58,656 nt of DNA, from NCBI GenBank assembly GCA_903824675.1, contig CAIJXV010000067.1, positions 1 to 58,656 of the forward strand. Reading direction: 5' to 3'. Both the position numbers and the translations under genes were made by a program. Positions 3 to 52,477 of the stretch are shown piece by piece. The DNA comes from an uncultured bacterium (GTDB lineage: Bacteria; Verrucomicrobiota; Kiritimatiellia; CAIKKV01; CAIJXV01). The number at the start of each line of letters is the position of its first letter. The stretch's first letter is position 1. The notes below the pieces were generated by a model that was given only the letters and a program-made list of their open reading frames with translations, was not told where the DNA came from and did no database searches.

Positions 3-155
3 GAATTTTTACGGGCCGAAGGCTTTGATCCCGCGGCCTTGCTGCTCGATCCCCTTGACCTCGACGCCCATTTCCGTACTATCTCTTCCGCCCCGCCTTC
101 CCCCAGCCGGGTGGGTCAGGAGGTACCTGCCTTGCCCGAAAAAAGCTTTTTTTAA
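3..155 (+). CDS. C-terminal end of an unidentified protein (5' partial)
   Basis: The frame starting at base 3 is open to a TAA at 153-155 and gives about 50 residues, beginning EFLRAEGFDPAALLLDPLDL and ending ALPEKSFF. The composition (Leu/Asp/Ala rich, then a Pro/Ser tail) looks like the end of a real protein and unlike the low-complexity reverse-strand reading of the same bases. The start lies outside the window. I do not recognise the family. The stop is 53 bases before the deacetylase start, so the two could be cotranscribed, although a promoter-like sequence lies between them. Confidence 0.5.
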   Translation, partial: EFLRAEGFDPAALLLDPLDLDAHFRTISSAPPSPSRVGQEVPALPEKSFF

Positions 156-42602: not shown

Positions 42603-44159
42603 TCAGGCTTGCTTCTTCTTTTTGGGGGGAGGGGTTTGCCGGCTGATGAGCCGGTTTACACAGGCAAGATACGCCTTGGCGGCGGCGTCCACGATGTCCG
42701 TGCTGGCGGCCTTGGAACTGATCGTTTCCTTGCCGAATTCAACGCGGATCGACACTTCCCCCATGGCGTCCTGGCCGACTGATACCGCCTGCAGGCTGAA
42801 ATCGAGCAGGCGCCCGGGCCGCTGTGTGATCCGATCGATCGTTTTCAAGGCGGCATCGACCGGGCCATCACCGCAGGCGGCGTCTTGGAGGACCTGGCCC
42901 TCGTGACGCAGGCGGACCGTAGCCGTCGGAACGGTTCCAGTCCCGGCAGAAACGCAAAGATAGTCGAGCGTATAGCTGGTGTCGGTAACCTCGGACATTT
43001 CATCCCGGGCGATCGACATCAGGTCGTCGTCATAAATCAGTTTTTTCTTGTCGGCTAATTCGACGAATTTTTGATACGCCCGCTCGGCCTCTTCATCGGA
43101 GAGGATCAGGCCCATCTTGGTCAGTTTGTCGCGGAAGGCATGCCGACCGGAATGTTTGCCGAGAACCAGGTCGGAGCCTTCAATGCCGATATCTTCGGGA
43201 CGCATGATTTCATAAGTAGTGCGTTCTTTGAGGATCCCGTCCTGATGAACACCCGACTCATGGGCGAAGGCGTTGGCCCCGACGATGGCCTTATTCCGTT
43301 GAACCTGCATACCGGTCAGGCGGCTGACCAAACGGCTGATCCGGAAGATTTCCCGGGTTTCCACATGGGTGCACAGGTTAAAGTAGTCTGCGCGGGTGCG
43401 CAGGGCCATGACGACTTCCTCCAGCGAGGTGTTGCCGGCCCGTTCACCCAGCCCGTTGATCGAGCATTCGATCTGGCGGGCGCCCGCTTTGACGGCGGAC
43501 AGCGAATTCGCCACCGCCATGCCGAGATCATTGTGGCAATGAACCGAAATGATAACGCCGGGAACACGGGCTTTTACGCGTTCGCCGACATACCCGATCA
43601 TGCTGCCATATTCCGCCGGAATGGCATACCCGACGGTGTCCGGGATGTTGAGTGTGGTGGCCCCGGCTTCGGCCACGGCCGTGTAGAGATCCACCAGGTA
43701 TTCCCGGTCCGCCCGGGTGGTGTCCTGGGCGGAATACTCCACATCATCCGTGAAGGTGCGGGCGAATTTGACCGCCTTGACGGAACGCTCGATATTTTGA
43801 GCGCGGGTCATCTTCAGGATCTTCTCCAGATGAATGTCACTACCCGAACTAAAGGTGTGAATGCGTTTCCGGGGGGCCGGTGCAATGGCCATGCCCGCGC
43901 GCTCGATATCTTTTTCAATGGTGCGGGCGAGGGCCGCGATGGTCGGACCCTTGACGTTTTCGGCTATGGTGTGTACCGCTTCGAAATCGTCCGGCGAGGC
44001 GATCGGAAAGCCGGCCTCAATCACGTCGACTTTCAGCACCGCCAGGGCATGGGCGATCTCGAGTTTTTCGCGGCGATTCAGGCTGCAACCGGGCGCCTGC
44101 TCGCCATCCCGCAGCGTGGTGTCAAAAATGATGACCTGATCTTTTTTTTCAGCATTCAT
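42603..44159 (-). CDS. leuA: 2-isopropylmalate synthase
   Basis: A 518-residue protein of usual length. The N-terminal TIM barrel has IFDTTLRDGEQAPGCSL at about 10-26 and the HCHNDLG metal motif. The LeuA C-terminal regulatory domain starts near DYLCVSAGTG and would bind leucine as feedback inhibitor. It condenses acetyl-CoA with 2-ketoisovalerate, the first committed step to leucine. It follows ilvN by 36 bases, with GGAG ten bases before the ATG, in the operon headed by the attenuator-like leader. Confidence 0.95.
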   Translation of the reverse strand: MNAEKKDQVIIFDTTLRDGEQAPGCSLNRREKLEIAHALAVLKVDVIEAGFPIASPDDFEAVHTIAENVKGPTIAALARTIEKDIERAGMAIAPAPRKRIHTFSSGSDIHLEKILKMTRAQNIERSVKAVKFARTFTDDVEYSAQDTTRADREYLVDLYTAVAEAGATTLNIPDTVGYAIPAEYGSMIGYVGERVKARVPGVIISVHCHNDLGMAVANSLSAVKAGARQIECSINGLGERAGNTSLEEVVMALRTRADYFNLCTHVETREIFRISRLVSRLTGMQVQRNKAIVGANAFAHESGVHQDGILKERTTYEIMRPEDIGIEGSDLVLGKHSGRHAFRDKLTKMGLILSDEEAERAYQKFVELADKKKLIYDDDLMSIARDEMSEVTDTSYTLDYLCVSAGTGTVPTATVRLRHEGQVLQDAACGDGPVDAALKTIDRITQRPGRLLDFSLQAVSVGQDAMGEVSIRVEFGKETISSKAASTDIVDAAAKAYLACVNRLISRQTPPPKKKKQA

Positions 44160-44195: not shown

Positions 44196-44684
44196 TCAGG
44201 CTGCTCCACTACGGGCGAGCACGATGATGCCGGATCGCGCGAGGTCGAGAATGGAGTACGGCTTCATTTGTTCGATAAAAGCGGCGACGTCCGCCTGTTC
44301 TCCGATGATTTGGAGCGTCACGGCTGCCGATTCCTCCGCGACCACGGTGGCCCCCGCGGTTTGGGCGGTTTTGATCAGAGCGGCACGTTCCGCCGGTGGG
44401 GCCGCCACCTTGAGCAGGACCAGTTCGCGATGTAAGAGGGGGGCCGTGGTAAGGTCATTGACTTGAATGACATCGACGAGGCGATTCAACTGCTTGGTGA
44501 CCTGTGCGAGCACCCGGTCATCGCCGGGGACCTGCATAGTGATCCGGGAGATGCCGGTTTCGTGGGTGGGTCCCACGCTCAGGCTTTCAATGTTGTACCC
44601 GCGGCCGGAGATCAGGCCCACCACGCGGGCGAGCACTCCCGGCTGATTTTCCACCAGTGCTGTAATAATATGTTTCATTGTCAT
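44196..44684 (-). CDS. ilvN: Acetolactate synthase regulatory (small) subunit
   Basis: A 162-residue ACT-domain protein: MKHIITALVENQPGVLARVV, GRGYNIESLSVGPT, ISRITMQVPGDDRVLAQVTK, QLNRLVDVIQVND, then RELVLLKVAA. This is IlvH/IlvN of normal length; it confers valine feedback on the catalytic subunit. Either ATG 44684 (MTMKHI) or ATG 44678 may be used; AAGGA precedes the first by four bases. It is 46 bases after ilvB and 36 bases before leuA on the same strand. Confidence 0.95.
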   Translation of the reverse strand: MTMKHIITALVENQPGVLARVVGLISGRGYNIESLSVGPTHETGISRITMQVPGDDRVLAQVTKQLNRLVDVIQVNDLTTAPLLHRELVLLKVAAPPAERAALIKTAQTAGATVVAEESAAVTLQIIGEQADVAAFIEQMKPYSILDLARSGIIVLARSGAA

Positions 44685-44730: not shown

Positions 44731-46458
44731 TCACGCCATGTTTTGCACCATTTCCGTCAGCGAGGCGCCCGGCGGCACCATCGGGTAGACGTTTTCCTCG
44801 GGCTTCACAATGCACTCCAGCACCACCGGTCCCGGCTGAGCCAGCATCTTTTTCAATGCGGGGCCCACCTCCCGTTTGGAGTCGACCCGCAGGCCGGTGG
44901 CGCCATGGGCTTCGGCGAGCTTGACGAAATCAGGCAGGTACCCCTTTCGGCGGGTCGTATCGATTTGTTCGTTGGCGGCGCGGTCATCCTGGCGCAGGCG
45001 CACGGCGGAATATTCGCGTTTATAGAACATCTCCTGCCATTGCCGCACCATGCCGAGATGGCCGTTATTGAGGATCACGACCTTGATCGGCAGGTCGTGC
45101 TCCACGGCCACCACCAGTTCCTGGAAGTTCATCTGGACGCTGCCGTCGCCGGCGATGGTGACGACGGTTCGATCCCGGCAGGCGGCCTGCACCCCGATGG
45201 CGGCCGGGAGGCCGAAGCCCATCGTGCCCAGCCCGCCGGAGGAGATGAACGTACGGGGGTGGGTGTACTTATAGAAATGAGCGGCCCACATCTGGTGTTG
45301 GCCCACTTCCGTGGTGATGATGGCTTCGCCGCGGGTGGCGAGGTACACCTGTTCGATCACTTCCTGGGGAAGCAGTTCCTGGTCATCCCGGTTGAAGGTC
45401 AGCGGGAATTCCCGGGCCCAGGCCGAGACCTGGTTGAGCCAGTCCGTCCGTTTACGCGGTTCGACCTGCGGGATGAGGGCCTGCAGGACGGCTTTCACGT
45501 GGCCGATCACGGGGATATCGATGGCCACGCTTTTGGAGATCGCGGAGGGATCGATATCGATGTGGGCCTTAATCGCGTTGGGGGCGAAGAGCGCAATCTT
45601 GCCGGTCACCCGGTCATCGAATCGGGCCCCGATGGACACCAGTAGATCGCATTCGCTGACCGCGCGGTTGGCGGCGACAGAGCCGTGCATGCCCAGCATG
45701 CGCAGGGCGAGGGGATCGGTCTCCGGGAAGGCCCCGAGTCCGAGCAGGGTGGTGGTGACCGGGATTTGAGCCTTGCGGGCGAGGGTTGTCACCTCCGCGG
45801 CGGCCTCTCCGGCAATGACTCCGCCGCCCACGAGGAAGAGCGGTTTTTGCGCCTTGTTGATGGCTTCCGCGAGCGTTGCGATGTCGCGCGGCGAGGCTTC
45901 CGGGGTGGGCTTATATCCACGGATTTTCACGGGGCCGGAAAAGGTGGCCGAGGTTTTGGCCTGCTGGATGTCCTTGGGCACATCGACCAGGACCGGGCCG
46001 GGTCGTCCGGTTCGGGCGATTTCGAAGGCTTCGGCCAGAATGCGAGGCAGATCATCGACATTTTTGACCAGGTAATTATGTTTGGTCACGGCGCGAGTAA
46101 TGCCGGTGGTGTCGGCTTCCTGGAAGGCATCGTTGCCGATCATGTGTGTGGGCACCTGCCCGGAGACACAGACCATCGGGATGCCGTCCATATTGGCGGT
46201 GGCGAGGCCGGTCACGGCGTTCGTCGCGCCTGGACCGGAGGTCACGATGCAGACGCCCACCCGGCCGGACGCGCGGGCGTAGCCGTCGGCCATGTGCGTG
46301 GCGCCCTGTTCATGCCGCACCAGGAAAAATTCCAGGGGGGCATGGTACAGTTTGGCGAAAATATCGAGGACCGTTCCTCCGGGCAGGCCAAACACGGTCG
46401 TCGTGCCGGCTTGCAGTAATCCATCAATGATACAATCAGCCCCGGTTCTCATTTCCAT
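44731..46458 (-). CDS. ilvB: Acetolactate synthase catalytic (large) subunit
   Basis: A 575-residue ThDP enzyme. VFGLPGGTVLDIFAKL near residue 25 with the RHEQGATHMADGYARASG (catalytic glutamate) stretch, then TSGPGATNAVTGLATA, RFDDRVTGK and GDGSVQMNFQELV with the metal-binding aspartate. It condenses pyruvate (or with 2-ketobutyrate) in valine, leucine and isoleucine synthesis. The ATG 46458 has GGAGG only three bases ahead; ATG 46452 has ideal spacing. An intrinsic terminator and a Val/Leu-rich leader peptide lie upstream, so the operon is probably under attenuation control. Confidence 0.96.
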   Translation of the reverse strand: MEMRTGADCIIDGLLQAGTTTVFGLPGGTVLDIFAKLYHAPLEFFLVRHEQGATHMADGYARASGRVGVCIVTSGPGATNAVTGLATANMDGIPMVCVSGQVPTHMIGNDAFQEADTTGITRAVTKHNYLVKNVDDLPRILAEAFEIARTGRPGPVLVDVPKDIQQAKTSATFSGPVKIRGYKPTPEASPRDIATLAEAINKAQKPLFLVGGGVIAGEAAAEVTTLARKAQIPVTTTLLGLGAFPETDPLALRMLGMHGSVAANRAVSECDLLVSIGARFDDRVTGKIALFAPNAIKAHIDIDPSAISKSVAIDIPVIGHVKAVLQALIPQVEPRKRTDWLNQVSAWAREFPLTFNRDDQELLPQEVIEQVYLATRGEAIITTEVGQHQMWAAHFYKYTHPRTFISSGGLGTMGFGLPAAIGVQAACRDRTVVTIAGDGSVQMNFQELVVAVEHDLPIKVVILNNGHLGMVRQWQEMFYKREYSAVRLRQDDRAANEQIDTTRRKGYLPDFVKLAEAHGATGLRVDSKREVGPALKKMLAQPGPVVLECIVKPEENVYPMVPPGASLTEMVQNMA

Positions 46459-46500
46459 ATTCCTCCGTTTCAATCGTTTCGCATTATAGGGATAATCAAC

Positions 46501-46530
46501 AAAAAACCCACCGCTTTTTTGCGGTGGGTT
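46501..46530 (-). terminator. Intrinsic terminator in the ilvB leader (attenuator hairpin)
   Basis: On the minus strand AACCCACCGC (46530-46521), loop AAAAAA, and GCGGTGGGTT (46514-46505) form a perfect 10-bp stem, followed by a T-run (about six Ts, 46506-46501, some in the stem end). It lies 28 bases after the stop of the 37-codon leader peptide and 42 bases before ilvB. Its 5' arm is also complementary to GCGGTGG inside the leader peptide gene, as expected of an attenuator. Confidence 0.88.
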
Positions 46531-46558
46531 GATGAAGACGCGACAGGACTAATTTCGA

Positions 46559-46672
46559 CTACGCCTGTACCTCCACCGCCACCGCGCGAGGGCCGGGTAC
46601 AAGGTACAACCCGACTACCCCTACGACGAGGGTGACGATGACGAGTACAAGCATGTTCAGATCGAAACTCAT
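46559..46672 (-). CDS. Candidate ilv leader peptide (37 aa, Val/Leu/Ile-rich)
   Basis: A 37-codon open reading frame, ATG (46672) to TAG (46559), lies in the ilvB 5' leader. Eleven codons are Val, six Leu and one Ile (18 of 37), and ten of codons 8-20 are branched-chain (L-V-L-V-I-V-T-L-V-V-G-V-V). It is followed by an intrinsic terminator before ilvB, the arrangement of ribosome-stalling attenuators such as E. coli ivbL. The same residues would also form one membrane helix, so a small membrane protein is the alternative; position and RNA pairing favour a leader. GGATGGA bases lie just upstream as a weak ribosome-binding site. The frame is too short to be noticed in routine gene finding. Confidence 0.78.
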   Translation of the reverse strand: MSFDLNMLVLVIVTLVVGVVGLYLVPGPRAVAVEVQA

Positions 46673-46697
46673 TCTATCCATCCTTTGAACTTCTAAA

Positions 46698-46726
46698 ACT
46701 ATGCCACAGGGGGCTGAAGATGTAAA
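46698..46726 (-). promoter_or_regulatory. Putative promoter of the ilv operon
   Basis: TTTACA (46726-46721) and CATAGT (46703-46698) on the minus strand are separated by exactly 17 bases. Transcription would start near 46691, about 19 bases before the leader peptide ATG. This gives a short leader that contains the peptide, the alternative stems and the terminator. Four of six bases match in the -10 box. Confidence 0.5.
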
Positions 46727-47508: not shown

Positions 47509-49021
47509 CTTTCATGCAACCGAGCGCCATGAATTTTGACCGCCAGAGTAAGACTTCGGCCCGGCCCAGAATTTGATAGAGCAGGCGCCGCCCTATGGGA
47601 ACCCCGGCCAGGCGCTGGTTATCCCAGAACAGGCGCGGAATCCAACGAAAATTCGTTTCGTAACATTCCCGGAATAATGACAAATGGTCCCGGGTCATTT
47701 GGGCAAGAGTGAAGGGGGGATCTGCCGGTAGGGGGCCGGGCGGTTCGTGAAAGATGGGAAAGACCGTAAGGGGCCGGTGGCGCCAACGACGCAGCCAATC
47801 CCGGGCTTTGCGCGGATCGTCGGATGTTTCTCCCGGTAATCCCAGGATCAGGCTGACAACCGGGAAAAAGCCCGCTTCCAATAAGCGATTCACCGCTTCA
47901 TCGACCATGTGGGGCCATTCCTCGGCGGCGGGCGAACCGATTTTCCCGGGACAGATCTGATTCAGCAGCGGGCCATTCAATGTTTCCACACCCAAGTTGA
48001 CCCAAAGATATTTTGAGGACTCGGCGCCGGGAAGTTGTCGGCGGATGGTAGCCAGGTCTTTCGGGCTGAATTGGAGTACGGATCGGACATTGGCGTGATC
48101 GATCTGCATGAAATCTAAATTCGGTATTTGGCGCATGCGCCCGACCAGATCCAGTACCGCCTCGGGGTTGACGCGCGGTCCCTGTCCCCTATACCGAAAG
48201 AAATCTTCGCTGGTGCTGAGTGCTGCGGGCTGTCCGCTGGCGACATTGGTCCGGAGATCGGCAAGAATCAGGTCGGGTTCGAAATGGAACATGGGGATAT
48301 CGGCCATTACACAGAATCCACAACCAAACCCGCACCCTCGCGAGCATTCCACGGCGCCCAGAGTGGCAGGACCCAGCAGGGGCCGGACATCTGGACCGGC
48401 CGATCCTTCGGCACGGACCCGGCGGGGCCGGGATCGGCCATTGAGGAGATCTTGAAAAAAAGCGGGACCTTCCGCTTCGAAATAACCTTCAAAAAAATGA
48501 TCGATCCGGTCGGCAAAGGGATCTTGCGGTTCGCGGAACCATTGCCAGGCACCGGGCCCGCCAAAGACGATTTTGAATCCCCAGCGTTCACGCGCGGGGG
48601 TGAGGCTGGCGAGTAATTCGCGGGTGAAGAGGCGGGGATAGAGTTGGCCGGGATTGAACGCGGACGTGGTGGTGTTGCTCATGGCGAAACCGAGCGGGTC
48701 GCCGGATGAGATCGCGACGATTTTCACCCAAGGTCCGAGCAGGCGGGGAAGGGCTTCAGGGGTTGTGCAGACGACCTCGTCGGAACCCAGCCCGCCGGGC
48801 GAACGCAAGGCGGTCTCGATTCGGCGCAGACCCAGGGGGGCACGTAGCGCCCGTCCCTCCGGACTGACCGGGAGCGGAGGGGCAAGGAGGCGGGTTTCGA
48901 TCAGGCGGGGAATGAAGGACGTCTGCATCCCGGCAAGGATGCCCTCGAAAACACAGGCATAGTCGGCGGAGAGCGACCGCTCTGCAACCAGGATGACCGG
49001 CGGGTGCAATGCGGAAGTCAT
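47471..49021 (-). CDS. B12-binding-type radical SAM protein
   Basis: A 516-residue protein. The N-terminal half (VVCTTPEALPRLLGPWVKIV; FKIVFGGPGAWQW) looks like the domain that binds B12 in BchE/HpnR-type radical SAM proteins. The cluster motif is ECSRGCGFGCGFC (CxxxCxxC), and MQIDHANVRS, VNLGVETLN and SLILGLPGETSDD are typical of the radical SAM barrel. The final residues lie in a repeat (see 47444-47508). It overlaps the downstream ferredoxin gene by four bases (ATGA), so they are coupled. Its chemistry is unknown; candidates are methylation or rearrangement of a cofactor or lipid. Confidence 0.82.
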   Translation of the reverse strand: MTSALHPPVILVAERSLSADYACVFEGILAGMQTSFIPRLIETRLLAPPLPVSPEGRALRAPLGLRRIETALRSPGGLGSDEVVCTTPEALPRLLGPWVKIVAISSGDPLGFAMSNTTTSAFNPGQLYPRLFTRELLASLTPARERWGFKIVFGGPGAWQWFREPQDPFADRIDHFFEGYFEAEGPAFFQDLLNGRSRPRRVRAEGSAGPDVRPLLGPATLGAVECSRGCGFGCGFCVMADIPMFHFEPDLILADLRTNVASGQPAALSTSEDFFRYRGQGPRVNPEAVLDLVGRMRQIPNLDFMQIDHANVRSVLQFSPKDLATIRRQLPGAESSKYLWVNLGVETLNGPLLNQICPGKIGSPAAEEWPHMVDEAVNRLLEAGFFPVVSLILGLPGETSDDPRKARDWLRRWRHRPLTVFPIFHEPPGPLPADPPFTLAQMTRDHLSLFRECYETNFRWIPRLFWDNQRLAGVPIGRRLLYQILGRAEVLLWRSKFMALGCMKVRAKSRDPGRAR

Positions 49022-49794
49022 GGATGGGGAGGGCTTTCGGGAAGGGAAGAGTGGCGTCGGCGTTTCAATAAGTCGGCAATCCGGTTTTCGCCGGATCGGG
49101 TTGCCTGAATGTCGCGAAGGGCCTCGTCGGGATGATGGTCGCTGAAATTGACATCGCCGTTAATCGGCCCGGTGGGATGGCGGGGGAAGATGATGGCGGC
49201 GGACGGACAGAGCCGTGCGCAGGCGGGACAACGGTTTTTGCAATTCCAGGGTTGGACTACTTTAGGGATTTGTCCGGTCTCGCCGGCATAGACGCCGAAG
49301 AGGCAGAAATTAACACACTGGCCGCATTTTTTGCACCGGACCGGATCGAGCGTCGGAAACCAGGGATCCCACGGATGGGCGACTCCTGAAGCCCCGGGTT
49401 CCGGTTGGGCGACGACCTCCAGGCTGACCGGGGCCGGGGTGGGTGAAAGATTCGCCAGCAGGCTGGGCCATTGGTTCATCAACTCGGTTTCTGACAGGGA
49501 ACGCAAATCCACGAAGGACCATTGGGCGAGTGTCTGGGCTGTCAGGTCAGGGATTCGTTGGAGGAGTGACTGGACCGCGCGAGGGTGGCAAGCCAGAACG
49601 AGGACGCGTTCCCAACCCGCGAGATCGGTCAGAAGATCCGGCGCGACCGCGCTGATTCCACACAGCGAGGCCAGGGCACGGTAGGGGATGTGATCGGCTT
49701 GGAGACGAGCTTCAATGGTCTGCCATCGGGCGGGAGGAATGACCTCTGAATCGGGGCAGCGGCAGATCAGGACGCCTGTGAAGGGAGATGTCAT
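49018..49794 (-). CDS. 4Fe-4S ferredoxin-like protein
   Basis: A 258-residue protein. An unassigned N-terminal half (GVLICRCPDSEVIPPARW; VLVLACHPRAVQSLLQR) resembles a small nucleotide- or heterodisulfide-linked domain. Two ferredoxin motifs follow: CKKCGQCVNFC near 160 and CKNRCPACARLCP near 185, the second with an inserted residue. It is the first gene of a pair with the B12 radical SAM protein, joined by an ATGA overlap, so it likely supplies electrons to it. The 3' end is rich in Arg. Confidence 0.8.
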   Translation of the reverse strand: MTSPFTGVLICRCPDSEVIPPARWQTIEARLQADHIPYRALASLCGISAVAPDLLTDLAGWERVLVLACHPRAVQSLLQRIPDLTAQTLAQWSFVDLRSLSETELMNQWPSLLANLSPTPAPVSLEVVAQPEPGASGVAHPWDPWFPTLDPVRCKKCGQCVNFCLFGVYAGETGQIPKVVQPWNCKNRCPACARLCPSAAIIFPRHPTGPINGDVNFSDHHPDEALRDIQATRSGENRIADLLKRRRHSSLPESPPHP

Positions 49795-50098
49795 GGATGG
49801 GTTTTATCGTATTTCAGCATCACACACACGTTTTTTTAACCCAGGGAAACGCGCCTCACACGGCGCTACTACGAACCGGAGCGAAACGCTGTTTGTTGTG
49901 GGCACGCGCGAGTGCCATTCTTTCCCCCGGGGAAACGCGCCTCACTCGGCGCTACTACGAACTGGAGCGAAAGGGAGTTTGTAGTAGGCACGCGCGAGTG
50001 CCGTTCTTTCCCCCCAGGGAAACGCGCCTCACACGGCGCTACTACAAACTGGAGCGAGAAGGTGTTTGGAGTAGGCATGCAAGAGTGCCGGTAACGTC
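49795..50098. repeat. Three-copy 86/87-bp tandem repeat (49844-50096)
   Basis: Units start at 49844, 49930 and 50017, each with GGGAAACGCGCCTCAC, and run about 86-87 bases. Each unit has two hairpins: CTACTACGAACT paired with AGTTTGTAGTAG (11 of 12 positions in unit 2), and GGCAC-GCGCGA-GTGCC. The third unit ends at about 50096. The region separates the ferredoxin and PQQ genes, and nothing else is encoded. A ferredoxin promoter is presumably at 49795-49843 but no clear box is seen. Confidence 0.88.
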
Positions 50099-51322
50099 TC
50101 AAGGAGTGGCTGGCGTAGCGGACACGGAAATAGCCAGGAGGCGGCCGGCGTCATTCCGGCAATAGATCAAGCCGTTGGCCAGGATCGGCACGGTCCAGCA
50201 GGTTCCTTTAAGGATGGCGCGTTTGGCGAGTTCCTGGTATCCATCGGGCGAGGCCAGGGCGATGGCCAGTTCGCCGCGTTCGCTTTGGATGATCAGTTTG
50301 CCGTCGGCCATCGTCAGGGAGCCGAATCCGAAACCGGCATATTCCCACTTGACGGTTCCAGTGGCCCAATCGATGCATTTCAGAGTGCCGCCTCCGGCAT
50401 TGCCATCGAACCCATAGACAAAGCCTTTCCACAGGACCGGGGTTCCGAAATGACTGCGGAGGGCCTTGTTGTTCCAAATCACCACGGGTTTTTCCCCGTC
50501 GATTTTGAGTAATGTGGCGCCGACGCCGTAACCGGAGGAAATCAGCATGCGACCGCCTTCAATCAAGGGGTCGGCGGCGTTGACATCATAGGAGGTTTTC
50601 CAAGGGAATTGCCAGTGGGACGCGCCGGTTTTGAGATCCACGCCGACCACGTTCTGGGCGGAGAATAAGGCGACGATGGAGCGTCCGCCGACTTCGCTCA
50701 CGACGGGGGTGGAATAGCCACTTTTTCCGGTGCCGGAGGACCAGATCGTCGCGCCGGTTACTTTGTCGAGAGCGAGTCCCTTCTCGCCGACATTGAGCAG
50801 AAGCAGATTGCCCTGGATGCGAGGAGACCCGGCGAAACCCCAGCCCGGAAGGTCGGCCTTGAGTTCATGGGCGACGGAGCGGCTCCAGATTTCCGCGCCG
50901 GAATCGGCTTTGAGGCAAATGACACGGCCTTCGCGGCTGATCAGGTAGACCCGGTTATCGCTGACGGCGGGGGTCGCCCGGGGGCCCGGATAACTGCCGG
51001 CGGAACAGGGGTAGGAGAATTTCCAGACTTCCGTGCCAGATCGGGCATTCAAGCATTGAACGATGTCCTGATTGTTTTTATTCCCGGCGGTATACAGCTT
51101 TTCTCCGACGACGGCGACGGAGGAATATCCCTGCCCGACAGCGGCTTCCCAAACGGTTTCGAGCGTGGATCCGGTCTTGAACCAGTTGGTTTCGAGGGAA
51201 ATGCCGTTATAATCCGGCCCCCGCCAATTAGGCCAGTCGGCGGCGAATGTATGGGGCGCAGTCCCGATGGTAAGGAACAGGAATAGGGGGATGAATAGGC
51301 GGCAACGAACGGATAAATTCAT
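50099..51322 (-). CDS. Secreted PQQ-like beta-propeller repeat protein
   Basis: A 407-residue protein with an N-terminal signal peptide (hydrophobic at 9-24, ending HTFAA-DWP), followed by repeating blades of the PQQ/quinoprotein type (WPNWRGPDYNGIS; QGYSSVAVVGEKLYTAG; TGATIWSSGTG; TGASHWQFPW; TGTVKWEYAG). No cofactor ligands of quinoprotein dehydrogenases are visible, so a binding or scaffold role like BamB is more likely. I chose ATG 51322 because GGAGG is eight bases ahead and the signal peptide follows; 54 upstream residues lack family character. The gene is minus-strand and divergent from the LRR gene. Confidence 0.85.
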   Translation of the reverse strand: MNLSVRCRLFIPLFLFLTIGTAPHTFAADWPNWRGPDYNGISLETNWFKTGSTLETVWEAAVGQGYSSVAVVGEKLYTAGNKNNQDIVQCLNARSGTEVWKFSYPCSAGSYPGPRATPAVSDNRVYLISREGRVICLKADSGAEIWSRSVAHELKADLPGWGFAGSPRIQGNLLLLNVGEKGLALDKVTGATIWSSGTGKSGYSTPVVSEVGGRSIVALFSAQNVVGVDLKTGASHWQFPWKTSYDVNAADPLIEGGRMLISSGYGVGATLLKIDGEKPVVIWNNKALRSHFGTPVLWKGFVYGFDGNAGGGTLKCIDWATGTVKWEYAGFGFGSLTMADGKLIIQSERGELAIALASPDGYQELAKRAILKGTCWTVPILANGLIYCRNDAGRLLAISVSATPATP

Positions 51323-51424
51323 GATGTCGACCTCCTGATTGAATGGGGCCGGATTATAAGGGGTTATTCCGGGTATTTCAAGAAAGGGTTGAGTATCCAT
51401 CGAATGATCTGGTACCTTTGGACT

Positions 51425-52477
51425 ATGAACTCCCCAATTCACACCCGGCTTAATGGGCGCGCGAGCCATCCTTCCCGGAGGCAAGTCGGGCTCGTGCTGT
51501 GGTGGTTGGCGATTACGATGCTGGCAACCGTTGCGAATGCCCAGGTTGGAGATTTCAGATACAAATCAAAAGCCGGCACGATTACCATCACCAAATACAT
51601 TGGCACCAACACGGTGGTGAATATACCCGCCGAGATTGATGGGTTGCCGGTCACCACCATCGGGAGCCTCGCGTTTGATGGCCAGACGACTCTAACCAGC
51701 ATCACAATTCCCGATAGCGTTACCCGCATCAAGGAAAAAGCGTTCTATCGGTGCAGCAGCCTGACCAGCCTCGCGATCCCCCAGGGCGTCACCAGCATTG
51801 AGGATCATGCGTTTTCCGCCTGTAGAAGCCTGACTCAAATTACGCTTCCTGATTATGCTACCCATATGGGGGTTTCCGTGTTCTTCGCCTGTGACAGTCT
51901 GACCAACATTGCCCTTCCTAATGGCATTACCAGCATTGAGGATTGGTCGTTCCTGGATTGCTCCCGGCTGGCTAGCATCACCATTCCTGATAGCGTCACT
52001 AACATTGGAAGTTTGGCCTTCTGGGGGTGTTGCAGTTTGTTCAGCCTGATCATTCCGGAAGGCGTTGCCAGGGTCCAGGATTATGCCTTCGAGGGCTGTA
52101 GCAGTTTGGAAAGCCTCTATTTTAAAGGTGATGCACACATCCTTGGCACCTCCGTGTTCGCCCGGGCTAATGCTGCAACTGTTTATTATATGCCATCGAC
52201 CCGGGGATGGACTAATGCATGGGGTGGGCGTCCGGCCGTGTTATGGAACCCACTAGCACAGCCTAACGATGGGAATTTTGGGCCAAAATCACAAGGGTTT
52301 GGGTTCACTGTAACCGGTTCCAGCAACCTGGTTATTGTCGTTGAAGCCGCCACGAATCTGGCAAATCCGGTCTGGGTTCCCGTTTCAACCCTTACCCTTA
52401 CCAACGGCTTCTCGTTTTATAACGATACCCTCTGGACGAATTATCCGTCCCGATTCTACCGATTTCGCGCACCGTAA
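51425..52477 (+). CDS. Secreted BspA-type leucine-rich repeat (LRR_5) protein
   Basis: A 350-residue protein with a signal peptide (hydrophobic core around residues 20-35, cleavage after ANA). Five or six LRR_5 repeats of about 23 residues follow; each reads AFxxCxSLTxIxIPxxVTxI, for example RIKEKAFYRCSSLTSLAIPQ. A C-terminal domain (FTVTGSSNLVIVVEAATNL, NPVWVPVSTLTLTNGFSFY) resembles a beta-sandwich seen at the ends of secreted PVC proteins. Such LRR proteins mediate binding at the cell surface. The start is uncertain; ATG 51425 gives a clean signal peptide without a ribosome-binding site. No partner is evident. Confidence 0.85.
   Translation: MNSPIHTRLNGRASHPSRRQVGLVLWWLAITMLATVANAQVGDFRYKSKAGTITITKYIGTNTVVNIPAEIDGLPVTTIGSLAFDGQTTLTSITIPDSVTRIKEKAFYRCSSLTSLAIPQGVTSIEDHAFSACRSLTQITLPDYATHMGVSVFFACDSLTNIALPNGITSIEDWSFLDCSRLASITIPDSVTNIGSLAFWGCCSLFSLIIPEGVARVQDYAFEGCSSLESLYFKGDAHILGTSVFARANAATVYYMPSTRGWTNAWGGRPAVLWNPLAQPNDGNFGPKSQGFGFTVTGSSNLVIVVEAATNLANPVWVPVSTLTLTNGFSFYNDTLWTNYPSRFYRFRAP

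Follow-up and report, generated by a model that had tools for sequence, protein, structure and literature searches.

A probable ribosome-mediated transcription attenuator of the ilvB-ilvN-leuA operon and its family in a class of Verrucomicrobiota

The ilvB-ilvN-leuA operon of an uncultured bacterium is very probably preceded by a ribosome-mediated transcription attenuator, one of a class-wide family in the Verrucomicrobiota that would act also at separate leuA genes and, in one genome, at ilvC. A sequence-only reading of the window (the whole 58,656-nt stretch of DNA analysed here) had proposed such an attenuator, and comparison supports the proposal, namely through a conserved cassette, leader codons matched to the downstream gene, and alternative RNA pairings. 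The defining features of a ribosome-mediated attenuator that can be tested in sequence are present: a codon-rich frame, an intrinsic terminator, an antiterminator and suitably placed control codons. Stalling, termination, read-through and the amino acid sensed are what we infer from this anatomy. Anatomy alone can mislead, since ilvB of Streptomyces coelicolor has a similar leader, yet mutations of its regulatory codons were without effect (PMC1262725).

The DNA belongs to an assembly of 4.24 Mb in 124 contigs. The host had been guessed to be a PVC-type bacterium, which is right at the phylum level (Verrucomicrobiota); the Akkermansia protein Amuc_1100, used as a probe, matched with 100% identity a single-contig genome of 2.7 Mb from the same phylum and another class. 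Pfam matches place ilvB, ilvN and leuA in a row, followed by aroE. The promoter-like site, the 37-codon Val/Leu-rich frame and the 10-bp terminator all lie where the sequence-only reading had put them, on the minus strand before ilvB. The parts, in the order of transcription, are:

46726-46721 and 46703-46698, minus strand: promoter P1, with -35 TTTACA, a 17-nt spacer and -10 CATAGT (9/12 in a consensus scan, TG before the -10)
46681-46686, minus strand: Shine-Dalgarno-like AAAGGA, 8 nt 5' of the leader ATG (read from the sequence)
46559-46672, minus strand: leader peptide frame MSFDLNMLVLVIVTLVVGVVGLYLVPGPRAVAVEVQA, ATG to TAG, 37 codons
46631-46648, minus strand: region 1, GTACTCGTCATCGTCACC, pairing with region 2 as anti-antiterminator (leader fold)
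46567-46587, minus strand: region 2, GCGCGGTGGCGGTGGAGGTAC, the final leader codons, with region 1 or region 3 as partner
46521-46530, minus strand: region 3, AACCCACCGC, the 5' arm of the terminator, with region 2 as alternative partner (antiterminator)
46501-46514, minus strand: region 4, GCGGTGGGTT, and T-run, the 3' arm of the intrinsic terminator
46483-46488, minus strand: TATAAT 3' of the terminator, candidate -10 of P2, a second promoter that would escape attenuation
44731-46458, minus strand: ilvB, acetolactate synthase large subunit (Pfam TPP_enzyme_N/M/C)
44196-44684, minus strand: ilvN, acetolactate synthase regulatory subunit (Pfam ACT_AHAS_ss, ALS_ss_C)
42603-44159, minus strand: leuA, 2-isopropylmalate synthase (Pfam HMGL-like, LeuA_dimer)

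Branched-chain residues occupy 18 of the 37 leader codons (11 Val, 6 Leu and 1 Ile), and translation may start instead at a later in-frame ATG at 46654. The leader stop codon lies 28 nt 5' of the terminator, a distance that is mostly 21-42 nt in relatives. The terminator itself reads AACCCACCGC-AAAAAA-GCGGTGGGTT-TTTT (46530-46501, minus strand). The first ATG of ilvB is at 46458, and the next one, at 46452, fits a conserved MRTGA start.

The combination of leader frame and terminator is not expected by chance in sequence of this composition. When the 300 nt upstream of ilvB were shuffled 2000 times with dinucleotides preserved, a frame with at least 9 Ile, Leu or Val in 12 codons arose in 10 shuffles (the real sequence has 10 in 12) and a terminator of at least 9 bp in two (the real one has 10 bp), and none of the 2000 had both. 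The minus strand from 46695 to 46460 folds with -91.9 kcal/mol (z = -4.5).

Most ilvB genes of the same order and class with 67-75% identity to the window's have upstream of them a short frame rich in Val and Leu, whose end lies about 22-31 nt from a terminator with conserved ACCCACCG...CGGTGGGT. The sequence-only reading had named conservation in relatives as the check on its proposal, and the outcome is favorable: short frame, terminator, antiterminator and spacing are kept in 20 or more families of the class, compensatory changes included, so an arrangement peculiar to the window is excluded. The class has two types of ilvB, about 70% and about 48% identical to the window's gene, and among 40 upstream regions of the divergent type in the same class none had terminator plus leader. 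These 40 are a natural negative control. The split is not absolute, as the model search described below found the cassette at two ilvB sites of the divergent type, L189 and L262. The cassette is usual at the first type (L002-L023), and genomes with the second type (L190-L229) often have it at leuA. By eye, one locus (L174) has an extra frame between attenuator and ilvB that resembles a four-helix 23S-intervening-sequence protein. Among viral contigs two distant ilvB relatives only were found, and matches in a broader contig scan were mostly distant ilvB genes.

A terminator pattern search had already located the cassette before leuA and ilvC. A covariance model (R1) spanning region 2 to the T-run was built from 21 sites (17 before ilvB, including the window's, three before leuA and one before ilvC), and a search of 288 genomes of the class with it added about 35 sites, almost every one of them followed by leuA or ilvB. 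The strong R1 sites were all before leuA, ilvB or 2-isopropylmalate-synthase-like genes, except for one truncated at the end of its contig; some of the weak ones are ordinary terminators. A refined model (R2), built from 59 sequences and run on 346 class genomes, found 61 sites at E<=2.5e-7, distributed over 60 genomes. Most of these site sequences had also trained R2, so that the fairest validation comes from the roughly 35 sites newly found with R1. By our own reading of the neighborhoods, the next gene at the 61 sites is leuA in 31, ilvB in 28 and ilvC in one, the last site being truncated by a contig end. Known false positives of R2 start at an E-value of about 1e-6. In 388 genomes sampled across the phylum the cassette was confined to members of the class, two matches outside it having been rejected as attenuators once their neighborhoods were read.

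The shared terminator sequence is rare, with two sites in the window's own genome and none or one per relative. The second site in the own genome is the terminator of a 5S rRNA operon (G000:C99:28328-28351), a false match that shares the stem with the attenuator. Reading of the neighborhoods also led us to reject weak matches that look like ordinary terminators or chance (L146, L148, L150, L151, L184, L186-L188, L230, L231, L235, L240, L241, L245, L246, L249 and L261); the two matches from outside the class belong to this set. At L258 (G143:C149), a terminator of the same family and a Leu-containing leader precede what by eye appear to be an XRE/cupin-type regulator and a CoA-ligase-like gene; the genes downstream do not look like branched-chain genes.

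Three mutually exclusive helices, 1:2, 2:3 and 3:4, are conserved with compensatory changes. The consensus is GCGGTGGG for region 2 (the last leader codons), CCCACCGC for region 3, and again GCGGTGGG for region 4. The alignment used (A4) was fitted to the 3:4 helix and not to 2:3. On it, 87.7% of the cells of the 2:3 helix are paired against 34-65% in slid controls, with 12 cells changed on both sides against a shuffled mean of 4.3 (0/500), and the 3:4 helix of the 59 sequences is 92.9% paired with seven doubly changed pairs (0/500); the sequences are related, and kinship inflates these helix and shuffle values, as it does the Fisher value below, by overstating independence. At some leuA loci regions 2, 3 and 4 change together, as in L163 (GCGATGGC/CCCATCGC/GCGATGGG). 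In relatives region 1 is CCATCGY, usually at codons 6-8; in 20 leaders CCATC[GC] keeps a single fixed spacing from the start codon, and 31 of 56 have xCATY. Its last base varies with the first base of region 2 (C-G 13, T-A 7, T-G 3, C-A 0; Fisher P=5e-4). Individual shuffle tests of the 1:2 helix are weaker, with P<0.05 in 15 of 55 loci and P=0.13 in the window, whose region 1 (46648-46631) is placed later than in relatives. Folds of single sequences gave all three helices among the loci examined, and the 2:3 fold often includes an inner hairpin around the leader stop codon.

The leader codons change with the gene that follows. Of the Ile+Leu+Val total, Leu contributes 65% in the 27 leuA leaders but 39% in the 28 ilvB leaders (Mann-Whitney P=2.8e-8), and Val accounts for 7% of residues in leuA leaders versus 20% in ilvB leaders. 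Examples are MNSVNTIVTLSTVAVVLVLRVLVLRLVPVRVAMGGSFH before ilvB (L178), MSSHKSIVARHAAGQKVLRTLLLSLSGNTRAAVGARC before leuA (L164) and MNRTTPQLTVPSQASFRENGTRAIIGIISSPGAVEMLAS before ilvC (L040), the last carrying IIGII. Such a switch of codons on one RNA scaffold is hard to explain except through sensing of the product amino acid. The Val/Leu run lies 5' of region 2, so a ribosome stalled there would leave region 2 free; the stop codon comes 14 nt after region 2 in the window and 9-19 nt after it in most loci.

The anatomy suggests the following scheme. Transcription would begin at P1. In an untranslated leader 1:2 would pair, region 3 would be available for the 3:4 terminator, and the operon would be off. 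When Val and Leu are plentiful, the ribosome would reach the stop codon and cover region 2, so that 3:4 would again form and the operon be off. With charged Val- or Leu-tRNA in short supply, the ribosome would stall on the Val/Leu codons and block region 1, 2:3 would form in place of the terminator, and the operon would be on.

How much of ilvB expression passes through this switch would depend on P2. In the window a perfect TATAAT (46488-46483) follows the T-run at a distance of 11-12 nt; about ten relatives' loci have it too, at a near-fixed spacing (L002, L004, L005, L006, L014, L017, L021, L043 and L045), and some other loci have TATGAT or TATACT at the same place. Given this conservation, ilvB transcription could start downstream of the terminator, and transcripts from the window's TATAAT may bypass the attenuator. 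It is nevertheless unlikely that the attenuator, though real, tunes a minor share of expression and that most ilvB mRNA comes from P2: the -35 position, GTGGGT, is a poor match, and many cassettes with a short distance from terminator to gene are without P2. This would in any case be a quantitative variant of the attenuator reading and not exclusive of it.

The same TATAAT, together with a peptide hydrophobic enough to span a membrane, is what a quite different account would draw upon, in which the frame encodes an unrelated small membrane protein of 37 residues and a single span, the hairpin is a constitutive terminator that ends the peptide's own transcript, and P2 drives ilvB. We regard this as very improbable. 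The peptide sequences vary freely outside the positions that the RNA helices constrain, and among the leuA leaders are several that could not form a span, being too short or too rich in arginine. A tblastn search of 76 other genomes with the leader peptide alone found no relative at E<0.01, because leader peptides diverge too fast for such a search to be useful. A membrane protein, moreover, would predict neither the 2:3 pairing nor the change of composition, from Val/Leu to Leu, according to which gene follows. That the leader is instead a metabolite- or tRNA-binding element with an incidental short frame can scarcely be credited: T-box elements or ppGpp riboswitches do precede ilv genes in other bacteria (ppGpp: PMC10272879), but the Rfam 15 covariance models (T-box, Leu_leader and other leader and riboswitch families) gave no match beyond noise in the window and 19 relatives, at permissive E-values too, and what is conserved here is a frame, its codons matched to the gene, and three simple helices.

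Among described systems the Corynebacterium ilvBNC attenuator (ilvB-II motif) comes closest; it is modelled with a leaderless leader and three hairpins, namely anti-antiterminator, antiterminator and terminator (PMC11857589, PMC10272879). By description the two are alike in the branched-chain-rich frame before ilvB, the three hairpins and the intrinsic terminator. They are set apart, also by description, by phylum and by the conserved sequence, here ACCCACCG...CGGTGGGT; in addition, the window's copy has a Shine-Dalgarno site, and the present cassette occurs also before leuA and ilvC with re-coded leaders. The ilvB-OMG and ilvB (Leptospira) RNA motifs likewise are conserved RNAs before ilvB with upstream frames rich in branched-chain codons, but those frames, compared by description, are also rich in threonine (PMC10272879). 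Actinobacterial ilvB and leuA leaders have been described as well, including at leuA the LEU element, a pseudoknot able to base-pair with the Shine-Dalgarno site of leuA (PMC1262725). It shares with the present leuA loci a Leu-rich upstream frame, whereas here a terminator/antiterminator pair precedes the gene. The enterobacterial leu, ilv and trp attenuators have in common with the present family a leader peptide rich in the end product, alternative 2:3 and 3:4 hairpins and an intrinsic terminator. Unlike them, the present family has no Rfam match, most of its members look leaderless, and region 1 is at codons 6-8. Enterobacterial leaders initiate at a Shine-Dalgarno site.

The sequence-only reading knew of no such attenuator in a PVC-type bacterium, and our search of the literature on Verrucomicrobia and Kiritimatiellota, incomplete in coverage, agrees in having found no published attenuator or leader peptide there; in the papers covered, amino acid attenuation is described mainly in proteobacteria, actinobacteria and firmicutes. 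The element is best called a new family, in a new lineage, of a known kind, the ribosome-mediated attenuator. Its approximately 60 members share a conserved, searchable sequence signature and offer a built-in natural experiment, in that one scaffold has Leu codons at leuA and Val/Leu codons at ilvB.

In most relatives the leader ATG or GTG comes 5-10 nt after the end of a promoter of the form TTGACN-16..19-(-10). A promoter score of at least 9/12 is found beside 70% of leader starts versus 9% of displaced positions. A 3-nt match to AGGAGG is absent at 48 of 56 leader starts, and a Shine-Dalgarno match is present at all 23 ilvB starts checked. The adjoining promoter and the lack of a Shine-Dalgarno site predict that most relatives' leaders are leaderless. 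The window's copy does not fit this pattern: its -10 sits 25 nt 5' of the ATG, its 5' UTR is about 19 nt, and it has AAAGGA. The family predicts about 60 short genes that annotation has likely missed, most of them with leaderless starts. More tentatively, a single cassette may have been duplicated or moved between leuA, ilvB and ilvC operons and re-coded for each pathway, being translated in most cases from the 5' end of the transcript; region 1 would then lie at the edge of the initiating ribosome, so that the switch would read 70S initiation as well as tRNA charging.

Elsewhere in the window, an 86-nt repeat occurs in three tandem copies with 81-86% identity (49832-50090), between a ferredoxin-like gene (49018-49794) and the large frame that comes after it (50099-51484).
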